A stretch of 47,101 bases of DNA from Candidatus Methylobacter titanis. GTDB taxonomy: Bacteria; Pseudomonadota; Gammaproteobacteria; Methylococcales; Methylomonadaceae. Location of the stretch: the NCBI GenBank assembly GCA_029946125.1, contig JAQSDX010000028.1:1-47101 (forward strand). Reading direction: 5' to 3'. This document shows positions 25,472 to 32,131 of this stretch, piece by piece. A program made the position numbers and the translations under genes. Positions within the stretch are counted from its first letter, which is position 1. Every line of letters begins with the position of its first letter. The notes beneath the pieces are model-generated. The model saw only the letters and a program-made list of their open reading frames with translations. It had not been told where the DNA came from and did no database searches.

Positions 25472-25842
25472 TAACCAGTCAACATATGAATTTACTTAAC
25501 GCTAGAGTAAGCAGATTGATTATTAAACCACGAAGACACGAAAAACCCAGGTAAAATCGGTAACTATTCAGCCTTATTCCTCGCTTCATTTAGTTTTGTA
25601 GCCCCGCTTGAACCCCAAAAATCACCGTCAGCATAATTCAAAGCATGCTTTTGCACTTTCAGCCGTGTTATTAAACAGCGGAACGAGCGTCGACACGAGT
25701 GAATAAACTGAATATTCTATTTCATTAAAACAACCGAAATAAACACCGCATCTGTATAAATCGTCAATAAAAGACCTCTGCCAATCTCATAATTATGAAC
25801 AGTAACCAACACTGTTTACTAGTGCTGGCGACAAAAGACTAC
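25472..25842. other. Intergenic stretch between ubiF and the gltB promoter
   Basis: About 370 bases without a gene. It contains one copy of the dispersed repeat (25527-25545, ACCACGAAGACACGAAAAA) and AT-rich text that likely carries the ubiF promoter on the minus strand. Nothing else is clear. Confidence 0.5.
25527..25545. repeat. Single copy of the dispersed CCACGAAGACACGAA repeat
   Basis: ACCACGAAGACACGAAAAA, closely matching the arms at 23611-23676 and, in reverse, 32575-32587. It lies upstream of ubiF and the gltB leader. Confidence 0.55.
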
Positions 25843-25871
25843 GTGACAGAATTATCTGTCATCCGTATAAT
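25843..25871 (+). promoter_or_regulatory. Strong sigma70-like promoter of gltBD
   Basis: GTGACA (25843-25848; consensus TTGACA), a 17-base spacer, and a perfect TATAAT (25866-25871). Transcription would start near 25878, giving a leader of about 108 bases before the gltB ATG. This is the best promoter match I found in the window. Confidence 0.75.
25844..25861. promoter_or_regulatory. Palindromic operator candidate over the gltB -35 region
   Basis: TGACAGAATTATCTGTCA is a perfect inverted repeat of TGACAGA and TCTGTCA around ATTA. It covers the -35 box and most of the spacer, where a bound repressor would block RNA polymerase. The regulator is unknown. Confidence 0.6.
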
Positions 25872-25883
25872 TAGACAATTTTG

Positions 25884-25925
25884 CCGCCCCTGCGACGGCT
25901 GATGCGAGCATCAAAACAGGTGCGG
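25884..25925 (+). promoter_or_regulatory. Structured 5' leader element of gltBD
   Basis: CCGCCCCTG (25884-25892) can pair with CAGGTGCGG (25917-25925) at eight of nine positions. The enclosed bases contain a 5-bp hairpin TGATG-CGAG-CATCA (25900-25913). It begins about six bases after the predicted transcription start and ends five bases before a terminator-like hairpin, a layout like a sensing domain plus expression platform. It does not match the glnA or downstream-peptide glutamine motifs as I remember them. Confidence 0.55.
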
Positions 25926-25929
25926 AACG

Positions 25930-25963
25930 AGGGTTATTAACGTAAAAAAATAATAACCCTTTT
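25930..25963 (+). terminator. Terminator-like hairpin in the gltB leader
   Basis: AGGGTTATTA (25930-25939) and TAATAACCCT (25951-25960) form a perfect 10-bp stem with an 11-base loop, followed by TTT and a T-rich stretch. It lies about 22 bases upstream of the gltB ATG and downstream of the promoter, so it can only act on gltBD transcripts: attenuation or translation control. Confidence 0.55.
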
Positions 25964-25985
25964 GTAATATTTTTCAGAGGTGACA

Positions 25986-28900
25986 ATGAGTCAAAGTACG
26001 CTACCGACCAGACAGGGTTTATATGATCCACGCAATGAACATGATGCATGCGGCGTGGGTTTTATCGTTCATATAAAGGGTCAAAAAAGCCATGAAATCG
26101 TACGTCAGGGCTTGGAATTACTGACCAACCTGACCCACCGTGGCGCGGTCGGCGCAGATATCCATGCGGGCGATGGTGCTGGTATTTTACTTCAAATCCC
26201 CGATACTTTTTTCCGTGCAGAGTGCGTCAAACTAAGCATCTCCCTGCCGAAAGTCGGAGATTATGCGGTTGGCATGATATTTTTGCCTAGCGACGCCGCC
26301 AATCGAGCCACTTGCGAGAAACTGTTAACCGACATTATTGTTCGTGAAAATGCCGTAGTGTTAGGTTGGCGCGATGTACCTGTCGACAACCAAACCCTGG
26401 GTGAATCGGTAAAACTGGTTGAACCGTTTATACGGCAGATTTTTATCGGTCGCGGATCAGATTGCTCTAATCAAGACGCTTTCGAGCGCAAGTTGTTTGT
26501 CATTCGCAAGCAAGTTGAAAACACCGTGCGTGATTTAAAGCTAGATCATGGCCACGCTTTTTATATTCCGTCGTTATCGTCACGTACCATAGTTTACAAA
26601 GGCATGTTGCTGGCAGATCAGGTCGGAGCTTTTTATCCGGATTTGAACGACGAGCGCATGGACAGTGCTCTGGCCTTGGTGCATCAACGTTTTTCCACCA
26701 ACACCTTCCCAACCTGGGATTTAGCGCATCCTTTCCGGCTGATCGCCCATAACGGTGAAATCAACACCTTGCGCGGCAATGTTAACGGCATGGCGGCGCG
26801 GCGTCATTCCATCGCGTCCAAAGTATTGGGCGACGATATGCACAAACTGTGGCCGCTGATCGACGAACAGCAATCTGATTCGGCCTGTTTCGACAATGCA
26901 CTGGAATTATTATTGGCGGGCGGTTATACACTGGCCCACGCGATGATGTTGCTGATCCCCGAAGCATGGTCCGGCAACGTGTTAATGGACGAAAAACTGC
27001 GTGCATTTTATGAATATAATGCTGCCTTAATGGAACCCTGGGACGGCCCTGCGGCCATCGCCTTTACCGATGGCCGTCAAATCGGCGCAACCCTGGATCG
27101 CAACGGCTTGCGTCCTGCGCGCTATCTGGTTACCGATGACGATTTCGTCATTATGGCATCAGAAATGGGCGTACTCGAAATTCCTCAGCACAAAATCATC
27201 AAAAAATGGCGCTTGCAACCGGGAAAAATGCTGTTGATCGACACCGAGCAAGGCCGGATTATCGACGATGCGGAATTGAAAGCCAATTTAGCCGCTTGCC
27301 ACCCTTATGCCGAGTGGCTAAGTAAAACACAAATTATGCTCGCCGATCTGCCTGCTGAAATTTCTGCAATGGCACCCGATGCGCATACCCTACTGGATAG
27401 ACAACAAGCTTTCGGTTATACCCGTGAAGATATTGAATTTATCCTGAAACCGATGGCAAAAACCGGACAGGAATCGATCAGCTCAATGGGTATTGATGCT
27501 GCACTGGCGGTATTATCGGAGCGTTCGCGCTTACTGTACGATTATTTCAAACAAGGTTTTGCCCAAGTCACCAACCCGGCCATAGACCCTATCCGCGAAG
27601 AATTGGTCATGTCTTTGGTTTCACTGATCGGCCCACGCCCAAATTTATTGGGCCTGGACGAAGGCGGAACCCACATGCGCCTGGAAGTGGAACAGCCTAT
27701 CTTGAGCAACCAGGATTTAGAAAAAATTCGCCGTATCGAAACGCGTACCGGCGGAGTATTCAAGACTAAAACCCTGACGTTTTGTTATCCTTCCGATTTG
27801 GGAGCAAACGGCATGGAAGCGGCACTGGATAACCTGTGTCTTGCGGCAAAACAGGCTGTTGAAGAAGGTAATAATATTCTGGCACTGTCCGACCGCAACC
27901 TGGATATTGCCCATATCGCGATACCTGCCCTGCTCGCGACTTCTGCCGTGCATCACTACCTGACCCGCGAAGGTCTACGCACTAAAGTAGGCTTGGTTAT
28001 TGAAACCGGCGAAGCACGCGAAGTTCATCATTTTGCGTTGCTGGCGGCTTACGGAGCGGAAGCGGTTAACCCTTATCTGGCGTTTGACACGCTCTCCGGT
28101 TTATGTGAAAACATTCCTGACCTAACCGAGTATGAAGCACACAAACGCTATACCAAGGCGATCTCCAAAGGTCTGCTCAAAGTCATGTCCAAAATGGGTA
28201 TTTCGACTTACCAGTCTTATTGCGGCGCGCAAATTTTTAATGCGCTCGGTTTAGCAGAACCCTTTCTGGATCGCTATTTCACCGGAACAACCAGCACTAT
28301 CGAAGGCGTCGACTTAGCCCAAATCAGCGAAGAAACCGCTCGCCGCCACCGGATTGCTTTCGGCAATGCCCCGTTATACCGCGAAGCACTAGATGTTGGC
28401 GGCGAATATGCCTATCGCGTACGCGGCGAAGCGCATACCTGGACACCTGAAACCATCAGCACCTTGCAACACGCGACGCGCAGCAACAGCTACGAAAAAT
28501 ATGCTGAATTCGCTCGCCTGATTGATGAGCAAGGCGAATCCTTGCTGACCTTGCGCGGCTTAATGTCATTCAAGGAAGATGCGACCCCGGTGCCATTGGA
28601 TGAAGTGGAATCGGCTGCGGACATCGTCAAACGTTTTGCAACGGGAGCTATGTCGTTCGGTTCAATTTCCTACGAAGCGCATACTAATCTGGCTATTGCG
28701 ATGAACCGCATCGGGGGCAAATCCAATACCGGCGAAGGCGGAGAACTTCCTGAACGCTTCAAGCCGCTGCCCAACGGAGATTCGATGCGTTCGGCGATTA
28801 AACAGGTCGCATCCGGCCGTTTTGGTGTGACCACCGAATATCTGGTCAATGCCGACGACATTCAGATAAAAGTTAGCCAGGGCGCAAAACCCGGCGAAGG

Positions 28901-30605
28901 CGGACAACTGCCAGGCCATAAAGTTGATGCCGTTATCGCCAAAGTGCGTCACTCCACGCGAGGCGTAGGCTTAATATCGCCGCCGCCGCACCATGATATT
29001 TATTCGATTGAAGATTTGGCTCAGCTGATTCACGATTTAAAGAACGTTAATCCCGAAGCGCGGATCAGCGTTAAGCTGGTATCGGAAGTCGGCGTCGGCA
29101 CCGTTGCTGCAGGTGTTTCCAAAGCCCATGCCGATCATGTCACCATTTCCGGTTTTGACGGCGGCACCGGCGCAAGCCCAATGACCTCAATCAAACACGC
29201 CGGTTTGCCGTGGGAAATCGGTCTTGCCGAAACCCATCAAACTTTGGTGCTCAACAAACTGCGCGGACGTATCGCCGTCCAAGTCGATGGCGGTTTGCGT
29301 ACCGGGCGTGACGTCATCATCGGCGCATTATTAGGTGCGGATGAATTCGGCTTTGCCACTGCGCCATTGATCGTGTCGGGTTGCTTAATGATGCGCAAAT
29401 GCCATCTGAATACCTGTCCGGTCGGTGTGGCGACGCAAGACCCTGAGCTGCGCAAACGTTTTACCGGACAACCGGAGCATGTGGTCAATTATTTCTTCAT
29501 GGTTGCAGAAGATGTGCGCCAATGGATGGCAAAACTGGGTTTCCGCACCGTTAATGAAATGATTGGGCGCTCGGACAAACTCGATATGCAGCGCTCACTG
29601 AATCATTGGAAAACGCAAGGCCTCGACTTTAGCCGGGTTTTCTATAAACCTGCAGTGGATCCTGGCACTATTCTTTATAACCACGAACGCCAGGATCACG
29701 GCTTGACTCAAGCGCTGGATCACAGTTTGATTGCGGCAGCCCAACCGGCGCTGGAAAATGGGCAACCGGTGGTTATCAACACGCCTATCCGCAACATTAA
29801 CCGAACTTTCGGTGCCATGCTGTCTGGCGAAGTCGCCAAACGTTATGGTCATAAAGGCTTGCCTGCCGACACCATATCAATTCATGTCAAAGGCACTGCA
29901 GGTCAAAGTTTTGGCGCATTTTTAGCGCAAGGCATCAGCATCGACCTTGAAGGCGATGGTAATGATTATGTAGGCAAAGGCATGAGTGGTGGACGTATCG
30001 CTATCTACCAACCCAAAGACTGCCCTATTACGCCGGCTGAAAACATTATCGTCGGCAACACCGTATTGTATGGCGCGGTCAGTGGCGAGTGTTATTTCAG
30101 CGGTATTGCCGGTGAACGTTTTGCGGTGCGCAATTCAGGTGCCGTCGCTGTCGTCGAAGGCGTGGGCGATCATGGCTGCGAATACATGACCGGCGGCGTA
30201 ATAGTCGTACTCGGACAAACCGGCCGTAATTTTGCAGCCGGCATGTCAGGCGGTGTGGCTTATGTACTGGATGAACAAGGCGACTTTGAAAAGCGTTGCA
30301 ATATGGCGATGGTGGAACTCGAACCTATCCCCGTAGAAGATGACACGCTGGAAGCTTTCGCACATCAAGGCGGCGATATGGAAACCCACGGACGTGTCCA
30401 CCTTATGTCCGATATGACCCGTCATGATGCACAACGCTTAAAGCATTTAATTGAAAACCATAAGCGCTATACCAACAGCGCAAGAGCGCTGCACATTTTG
30501 GATAACTGGCAGGATTATTTGCCACGTTTTGTTAAAGTCATGCCGGTCGATTACCGCGAAGCACTCAAACAAATTCAGGCTGAACAAGCTACTGCGTCCT
30601 GCTAA
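25986..30605 (+). CDS. gltB: Glutamate synthase (NADPH) large subunit
   Basis: The 1539-residue alpha subunit makes two glutamates from glutamine and 2-oxoglutarate. Order of domains: a class II glutamine amidotransferase whose nucleophile is Cys22 ([14 protein letters not shown]; a propeptide of 21 residues would be removed), a central domain, an FMN-binding TIM barrel from about residue 850 with [13 protein letters not shown] and [18 protein letters not shown], the 3Fe-4S cysteines in [18 protein letters not shown], and the C-terminal GXGXG beta-helix ([23 protein letters not shown]). AGAGGTG precedes the ATG at 25986; a GTG at 25980 is in frame but lacks spacing. It is expressed from the promoter-leader described at 25843-25963, and gltD follows after 83 bases. 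Confidence 0.96.
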
Positions 30606-30688: not shown

Positions 30689-32131
30689 ATGGGTAAACCA
30701 ACCGGGTTTATGGAACTAGAACGCACTGAACGGCACACTGCATTGCCGAGTGATCGTATCCAGCATTATCGCGAATTTACACTATCCCCCAGCGATACCG
30801 AATTGGCTGAGCAGGGTTCAAGATGTATGGATTGCGGCATTCCTTTTTGCCATCAAGGCTGCCCTGTCAATAATATTATCCCCGACTGGAATGACAGTGT
30901 TTATCAAGGGGATTGGCAACAGGCGTTGGAAACTTTACACAGCACCAACAATTTTCCCGAGTTTACCGGACGTATCTGCCCTGCGCCCTGCGAGGCCGCT
31001 TGCACGCTCAATCTACAGGATCAGCCGGTAACCATTAAATCGATAGAATGCGCCATTATCGACAAAGGCTGGACAATGGGCTGGGTAAAACCGCAAATCC
31101 CGAAAAAGCACACCGGCAAGCGCGTAGCAGTAATTGGTTCGGGGCCTTCGGGATTAGCCTGCGCTCAACAGCTGGCACGCGCCGGGCATGAAGTCGTGGT
31201 CTATGAAAAGAACGACCGTATCGGCGGTTTATTGCGCTATGGCATTCCCGATTTCAAGATGGAAAAAGTACATATCGATCGACGCATTGCGCAAATGCAG
31301 GCTGAGGGCGTCAGCTTTAGACCCAACAGCCATATTGGTACAGACATTTCCGCACAAAAAATACTCGCCGACTACGATGCCGTAGTTTTAGCGGTAGGCT
31401 CCGAACAGCCGCGAGACCTGGAAGTTACAGGGCGCAATGATTATCAAGGCGTTTATTTTGCGATGGATTTTTTGCGCCAGCAAAACAAACGTAACGCAGG
31501 CGACACCATAGCCGAGGATATTGCCATTACCGCGACCGACAAGCATGTCGTAGTCATCGGCGGCGGGGATACCGGTTCCGATTGCATCGGCACATCGATT
31601 CGTCAGGGTGCAGCTTCCGTGGTGCAACTAGAAATCATGCCGCAACCGCCTGAAAAAGAAAATAAATCGCTGACCTGGCCGCTGTGGCCTAACAAGTTGC
31701 GCACCACGTCTTCACATAATGAAGGCATCAAAAAGCGTTACTGGAGTGTAAACACCAAAAGTGTTACCGGAAAAGAGGGGAAAATAACTCATCTGAACGC
31801 GGTAGAAGTGGAGTGGAAACAAGAAAACGGTCAGTGGAAAATGAGCGAGAAGCCCGACAGCGCTTTCACCCTGGACGCGGACATTGTGCTGATAGCCACG
31901 GGTTTTGTTCACCCCGTACACGAAGGCTTATTGCAGGAACTTGGCGTTGAACTCGAGCGTAACAACATCAAAGCCACTGATAAACAGTACCGCACCTCAA
32001 TCGACAAAGTATTCGCCGCAGGTGACGGCCGACGTGGACAATCGTTGGTAGTATGGGCGATACGTGAAGGCAGACAAGCTGCCAGAGCAGTCGACGAGTT
32101 CCTGATGGGAACATCGGAACTGCCGAGGTAA
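30689..32131 (+). CDS. gltD: Glutamate synthase (NADPH) small subunit
   Basis: The 480-residue beta subunit takes electrons from NADPH and passes them to GltB. The N-terminal segment has two 4Fe-4S cysteine groups: [19 protein letters not shown] and [17 protein letters not shown]. An FAD Rossmann site follows at [20 protein letters not shown] and [13 protein letters not shown], then an NADPH site [15 protein letters not shown], then the FAD-closing [25 protein letters not shown] lies nine bases before the ATG. The gene is 83 bases after gltB and separated from it by a hairpin. A perfect 13-bp inverted repeat follows its stop. Confidence 0.96.

Follow-up and report, generated by a model that had tools for sequence, protein, structure and literature searches.

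A candidate structured leader RNA of the glutamate synthase operon in Methylobacter and related methane-oxidizing bacteria

Among the regulatory RNAs found in the leaders of nitrogen genes are the glutamine riboswitches glnA RNA and Downstream-peptide (Rfam families RF01739 and RF01704, respectively); these are cyanobacterial or marine, and their junction architecture is different from that of the leader described here. The paper on another such element, the gltD motif (SRC-18-1), is reportedly by Brewer et al. (2021). The gltD motif of Selenomonadales/Veillonellales is an unvalidated riboswitch candidate of unknown ligand that immediately precedes a glutamate synthase gene; a promoter often stands before it, and a hairpin after it is described as covering the ribosome binding site (PMC8632094). 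The glnA RNA occurs before glutamate synthase genes as well (PMC2864571).

The leader considered here precedes gltB in a 47,101-nt stretch of contig JAQSDX010000028.1 from Candidatus Methylobacter titanis, the whole of which we call the window (Table 1). The identities of both GltB and GltD were confirmed by NCBIfam, gltD being the second gene of the operon, and the closest relatives of the source genome are Methylobacter, Methyloglobulus, Crenothrix and further Methylococcales. A first-pass annotation of this DNA had described a promoter, an outer stem holding a smaller hairpin, and a second stem followed by a weak T-run, all in a gltBD context, and these observations proved real as described: GTGACA (25843-25848) and TATAAT (25866-25871) are separated by 17 nt, the outer stem (P1) has 8 pairs and one mismatch (CCGCCCCTG/CAGGTGCGG), the second stem (T1) is a perfect 10-bp helix (AGGGTTATTA/TAATAACCCT), and the T-run in the tail TTTTGTAATATTTTT is indeed weak. 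Counting from the end of the promoter at 25871, transcription is predicted to start at ~25876-25880, which would give a leader of ~108 nt. The list of open reading frames starts gltB at a GTG at 25980; we took the ATG at 25986 as the start codon because it is the one that relatives share. Both stems are present in the minimum-energy fold of the window leader, in which the small stem drawn at the site of the inner hairpin (P2) differs from GATG-CGAG-CATC. The energy of this fold is -27.5, and 12 of 200 shuffles were equally good; a second run of 100 shuffles gave a z-score of -2.16, and the mean over 70 leaders was only -0.75. Set against the earlier caution that the stems might be due to chance, the window leader as a whole did better than most shuffles (z-score -1.61 in the run of 200), and none of 300 shuffles equalled T1 in stability; conservation is the stronger evidence.

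Table 1. Features of the gltBD leader region, with positions in the window
Feature	Position	Strand	Evidence
Sigma-70-type promoter GTGACA-17-TATAAT	25843..25871	+	sequence; 11/12 consensus matches
Predicted structured 5' leader RNA of gltB	25878..25985	+	covariance models R1/R2 match 25874-25985
Conserved GTTTTGC block, ATTTTGCC in the window	25878..25885	+	overlaps start of P1 5' strand
P1 helix, 5' strand CCGCCCCTG	25884..25892	+	own-vs-swapped 0/5000; contrasts first of 122 window pairs
P1-loop segment, GCCTYTGA in many relatives, complementary to SD; degenerate in the window	25894..25905	+	4 contiguous pairs in the window
P2, small hairpin GATG-CGAG-CATC within P1 loop	25901..25912	+	own-vs-swapped 0/5000; contrasts not significant
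Possible 12-codon upstream ORF MRASKQVRNEGY	25902..25940	+	no evident SD
P1 helix, 3' strand CAGGTGCGG	25917..25925	+	own-vs-swapped, contrasts, model-fitted alignment
T1 hairpin, 5' arm AGGGTTATTA	25930..25939	+	hairpin z -3.62; GAGGGTT strongly conserved except g22
T1 hairpin, 3' arm TAATAACCCT	25951..25960	+	hairpin z; conserved AACCCTT
T-rich tail TTTTGTAATATTTTT, weak U-tract	25960..25974	+	tail scores
Shine-Dalgarno (SD) AGAGG of gltB	25976..25980	+	sequence; strongly conserved among relatives
gltB, glutamate synthase large subunit	25986..30605	+	NF008730 1768 bits (cut-off 1047); four Pfam GOGAT domains
gltD, glutamate synthase small subunit	30689..32131	+	TIGR01317 712 bits (cut-off 448)

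DNA-level matches to positions 25800-26000 (201 nt) were found in 55 of 201 genomes and 12 of 29 genera of the family, and 21 of the best 30 matches started between query bases 30 and 36, shortly before the -35 element. For the 1545-residue type of GltB we gathered 78 upstream regions (67 + 11), of which 73 were aligned; left out were three with a distant GltB (G043, G005 and G019), G114, and G085, which is identical to G112. Three more (G108, G178 and G166), whose 5' half was not alignable, were omitted from the pairing tests, leaving 70 leaders. Most of the 73 share one order of elements, namely GTGACA-TATAAT, (G/A)TTTTGC, a variable P1 and P2, GAGGGTT...AACCCTT, AGAGGTGACA and ATG, and the conserved block spans from just upstream of the -35 element through this ATG. 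Leaders of genus g22 and some of g13 deviate from this order (genera are numbered, g1 being that of the window), and the exceptions to the conservation of the promoter, which is kept in most aligned relatives, are likewise among g13.

A covariance model (R1) built from 19 same-genus leaders scored 108.9 bits on the window leader (E 7e-27) and, at E ≤ 0.01, matched 60 of the 237 genomes searched in the family, with a single match per genome and every match at most 2 nt from a gltB start; 49 of these were placed by coordinates and the other 11 were read, each adjoining an ATGA(A/G)TCAA gltB start. Among 311 genomes of the order, R1 had matches at E ≤ 0.05 in 63, every one of which belongs to the window's family; the coordinates place 61 of these matches at gltB, and the remaining two are weak (G140, of 36 bases, and G208). 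Among 369 genomes of the class, a broader model (R2) had a match at E ≤ 0.05 in one, that of the window itself. Both of these searches ran Infernal with stricter filters, which lose weak matches. On a set of 51 loci R2 gave 25 matches at E ≤ 5, all within 24 loci that carry the gltB type of the family, and none at that threshold in the distant-gltB loci (L080-L086, L088-L093, L095, L096, L099, L100, L105, L108, L109, L118, L121, L124, L136 and L166-L168). As far as searches of this sensitivity can tell, the RNA belongs to one gene and one family. That it also precedes other genes was rejected, as R2 found no second copy in the window's own genome below E = 1 (there was one weak match at E 1.96) and matched family genomes carry one match each.

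Many genera of the family had, among the matches listed, no 1545-residue GltB, with ~33% identity in ORFs of ~1830 residues or 46-49% identity in ORFs of ~1531 residues; the glutamate synthase of these genera seems to be of another type.

No Rfam 15 family reached its gathering score in the window, and in 20 relatives the two matches at E ≤ 1 (AaHKsRNA41 and IS009) were both far below gathering. The leader resembles glnA RNA and Downstream-peptide in being a nitrogen-gene leader, but unlike them it has no Rfam match, positions 25800-26010 giving none to Rfam 15 at E ≤ 10; this agrees with the first-pass annotation, which had seen no likeness to known glutamine RNAs. Membership in any Rfam 15 family, the glutamine riboswitches included, was therefore rejected at gathering and relaxed thresholds. 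A literature search covering titles and the beginnings of abstracts in PMC returned no description of a gltB leader RNA in methanotrophs among the matches listed. The closest published kind among the searchable papers appears to be the gltD motif, which we set beside our leader by description only: both precede a glutamate synthase gene, but the gltD motif stands before gltD in Selenomonadales/Veillonellales, whereas the window leader stands before gltB, with gltD second, in methane-oxidizing Gammaproteobacteria (PMC8632094). The leader RNA was thus found neither in Rfam nor in the searched literature, and it has moderate covariation support.

Across the 70 leaders, P1 strands paired better with their own partners than with permuted ones (-10.34 versus -8.93 kcal/mol; 0/5000 permutations), as they did within g1 alone (1/5000) and within g13 alone (61/5000); a control pairing using a promoter segment gave 3145/5000. 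Because kinship can inflate this kind of result, we ran disjoint contrasts between closest relatives, and here P1 had a mean gain of 0.63 kcal/mol (17 positive, 8 negative; Wilcoxon p 0.01, sign test p 0.054), larger than that of all 121 background window pairs, which exclude windows near P1 itself (maximum 0.48). Examples include CTGCACTT/AAGTGCAG in G007, GCTC/GAGC in G200 and other g13 genomes, and CGTACC/GGTACG in several g1 genomes. A model-fitted alignment of 63 rows (A2; 63 matches from 65 chosen sources), which leans towards structure, had two-sided changes in 18 of 21 pairs, with 113 cells versus 49 in shuffled alignments (0/500). The signal was weaker in a plain MAFFT alignment within the genus (5 pairs, 13 cells versus 5.1; 3/500), and per-column covariation under a self-written, R-scape-like tree-based null found no pair at E < 1 in alignments of 22, 31 and 62 rows (lowest ~2.9). 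Because this per-column test found no significant pair, an outcome that speaks against the structure, we regard structural support as only moderate: P1 is supported at the level of the helix, and its individual pairs are not each proven. The first-pass annotation had held that a lack of compensatory changes in the stems among relatives would speak against its reading. Such changes are present in P1 by the swapped-strand, contrast and alignment tests, so this lack was not borne out for the outer stem; the covariation it had proposed to look for was found for P1 as a helix, but not as significant single columns. For P2 the own-versus-swapped test gave 0/5000 but the contrast p was 0.13, and its support is below that of P1.

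The arms of T1 are conserved as letters, and because of this T1 can barely covary. It has no two-sided changes within the genus, and its own-versus-swapped result was not significant (566/5000), though its contrast p was 0.04. Over 70 leaders its mean z-score was -1.4, other genera being less stable than the window. Mean tail scores were -3.2 to -3.8 in g1, g5, g10, g13 and g23 and weak in g18, g22, g26 and g28 (means -0.9 to -2.1), with -3.83 in g1 versus -1.87 in g18; a small number of rows from g13 and g22 score 0 because no CCC or TCC was found in them as a starting point. The hairpin is kept and the U-tract gone in all seven leaders of the Methyloglobulus-like g18, g26 likewise retains T1 without a T-run, and g22 leaders are without T1. 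With TTTTGTAATATT behind it, T1 might terminate transcription weakly in g1, g5, g10, g13 and g23; a terminator scan limited to loops of 3-8 did not call T1, whose loop is 11. The word terminator does not fit the family as a whole, because g18 and g26 keep the hairpin without a T-run; in these genera T1 would have a role other than termination, unless the T-run is a later gain of some members of the family. What holds of the first-pass interpretation, a folded sensor followed by a terminator, is a conserved, structured gltBD leader without an Rfam match; its terminator half would not extend to g18, and as a whole it is partly supported. Two other pairings were tried and found unsupported: an antiterminator formed between the P1 loop and the 5' arm of T1 (own-versus-permuted 3823/5000, z 0.30) and a helix between the 5' strand of P1 and the 3' arm of T1 (4235/5000).

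In the minimum-energy folds of g22 leaders (L054, L059 and L149), the GTTTTGCC block has a potential pairing partner downstream, a GGCATGA-like segment, and these leaders are possibly a rearranged version of the leader.

The P1 loop frequently reads GCCTYTGA, which is complementary to the SD region TTAGAGGT. Against dinucleotide shuffles this complementarity had a mean z-score of 1.36 (z > 1 in 45 of 70 leaders), compared with -0.24 to 0.41 for five control pairings and 0.30 for the purine-rich T1 arm used as a control. Helices of at least 7 bp were found in 33 of 70 leaders versus 17.9 expected and of at least 8 bp in 20 of 70 versus 7.2 expected, and three of seven g18 leaders have a 10-bp helix; pairing is weak in g2, g8, g10 and g28, and the window's species retains just four contiguous pairs. 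Loop and SD showed no covariation (own-versus-permuted 651/5000; contrast p 0.68). The SD region hardly varies among leaders, and g1 loops paired with most foreign SD regions equally well or better than with their own, those of g18 giving -10.2 versus -8.5. There was no significant correlation between T1 stability and loop-SD strength, and so no trade-off, among the leaders compared. In part of the family, these complementary segments could form an H-type pseudoknot that hides the SD. This would be a likeness to the SD-pairing NAD+-II/pnuC riboswitch, in which a loop is able to pair with a downstream purine-rich ribosome site (PMC8632094), but that riboswitch belongs to another gene, and in our leaders only some members of the family have the pairing, which shows no covariation.

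We favor, with confidence a little better than even, the explanation that the gltBD mRNA carries a structured leader which is specific to this lineage and acts in cis, through T1, SD pairing or both. Transcription is predicted to start just before the conserved (G/A)UUUUGC block, and the RNA folds, with moderate covariation support, into P1 with P2 in its loop, followed a few nucleotides later by T1, a U-rich stretch and the gltB SD. The leader may regulate gltBD by alternating between an open conformation and one or both of two repressed ones. In one of these, T1 would be a weak intrinsic terminator in members that retain the U-tract, the window's species included; in the other the P1 loop (GCCUYUGA) would pair with the SD region UUAGAGGU in an H-type pseudoknot, with which P2 would compete. 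Whether T1, SD pairing or both are used probably differs between genera, and, judging from the gene alone, the signal could be glutamine, 2-oxoglutarate, glutamate or a nitrogen-responsive protein. We word this mechanism conditionally because the SD is so nearly invariant, loop-SD covariation was unseen and the window keeps four pairs. Glutamate synthase is a main entry of ammonium into cell material, and nitrogen supply strongly affects methane oxidizers. If our explanation is true, the gltBD leader would be an added layer of control over nitrogen assimilation in Methylobacter, Crenothrix and their relatives, which are important methane consumers, and would add another lineage with an RNA-controlled glutamate synthase to those of the gltD motif and glnA RNAs; several such lineages would make the ligand question testable by comparison.

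A special case of this explanation is a metabolite riboswitch proper, with P1/P2 binding glutamine, 2-oxoglutarate or glutamate and coupled to T1 or SD pairing. The conserved blocks next to a variable yet pairing stem, the association with gltB only and the loop-SD complementarity all point this way, and the gltD motif is a precedent for such candidates at glutamate synthase genes (PMC8632094). However, the best-conserved letters are those of GTTTTGC close to the 5' end, of both T1 arms and of the SD, which do not suggest an evident binding pocket, the loop of P1 varies and is short, and in the family the element precedes one gene only at E ≤ 0.01, and we consider a riboswitch possible but doubtful. 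Bolder, and in our view unlikely, is a new family-confined riboswitch class that serves GOGAT, has glutamine or 2-oxoglutarate as its ligand and has swapped one expression platform for another from genus to genus, g18 having an SD-sequestering pseudoknot without a U-tract, the window's species a hairpin-terminator with a lost anti-SD, and most other members of the genus both.

Alternatively, an RNA-binding regulator might recognize T1 (GAGGGUU...AACCC) or the GUUUUGC block. Such a protein would suit T1 arms that are kept as letters beyond what pairing needs, even in g18 where the U-tract is missing, but the lack of a second copy of the element in the window's own genome below E = 1 speaks against it, and we do not think it probable.

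Control mostly at the DNA level, by a promoter with operator sites and with largely incidental stems, would account for a promoter conserved along with the leader and for the absence of significant per-column covariation. It also draws on an inverted repeat, TGACAG-N6-CTGTCA, over the -35 region, which is perfect in 8 of 22 g1 genomes. We nevertheless regard it as quite unlikely, as DNA sites leave unexplained both the P1 pairing tests and the T1 z-score, and as conservation extends to the start codon. The repeat itself (TGACAGAATTATCTGTCA at 25844-25861) overlaps the -35 element and spacer of the gltB promoter, has no more than a single mismatch in 13 of the 22 genomes of the genus and looks like an operator by its letters; given its place in the promoter, a DNA-binding repressor may act too.

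The least probable of these explanations is leader-peptide control, by which the upstream ORF MRASKQVRNEGY begins in P2 and stops in T1, and the position of the ribosome sets the stems. Many g1, g13 and g23 leaders have a similar peptide in the same frame with a nearby stop, and dN/dS in this frame was 0.53 versus 0.72 and 1.24 in the other frames (20 g1 leaders, without G144 and G202), 0.58 versus 0.78 and 1.00 (all 22 g1 leaders) and 0.56 versus 0.73 and 0.83 (13 g13 leaders), but column shuffles were as low in 5 of 60 and g18 had no coding-like signal (dN/dS 1.04). A short leader ORF, here overlapping the stems, is also a likeness to leader-peptide attenuators such as the uORF of the ilvB-II motif (PMC10272879); the start codon here, however, is poorly conserved and lacks an evident SD. 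An ATG stands at the ORF site in 15 of 22 g1, 6 of 21 g13 and 2 of 3 g23 leaders and in none of seven each in g18 and g22, and we rank this explanation as very doubtful because the ATG is absent from 7 of 22 same-genus leaders, in-frame stops interrupt the ORF in G144, G186 and G192, where P1 still pairs, and no SD is evident before it.

Two further features of the region were noted. Synonymous-codon conservation in gltB codons 1-36 (25986-26093) had 12-codon means of 0.81-0.87, versus 0.55-0.80 downstream (30 genomes). A palindrome, TTGTAAAACAA (GTGTTGTAAAACAACAC in G142), is present in 7 of 24 g13 gltB-upstream regions (L142, L154, L160, L163, L164, L165 and L205) and in none of 22 in g1.
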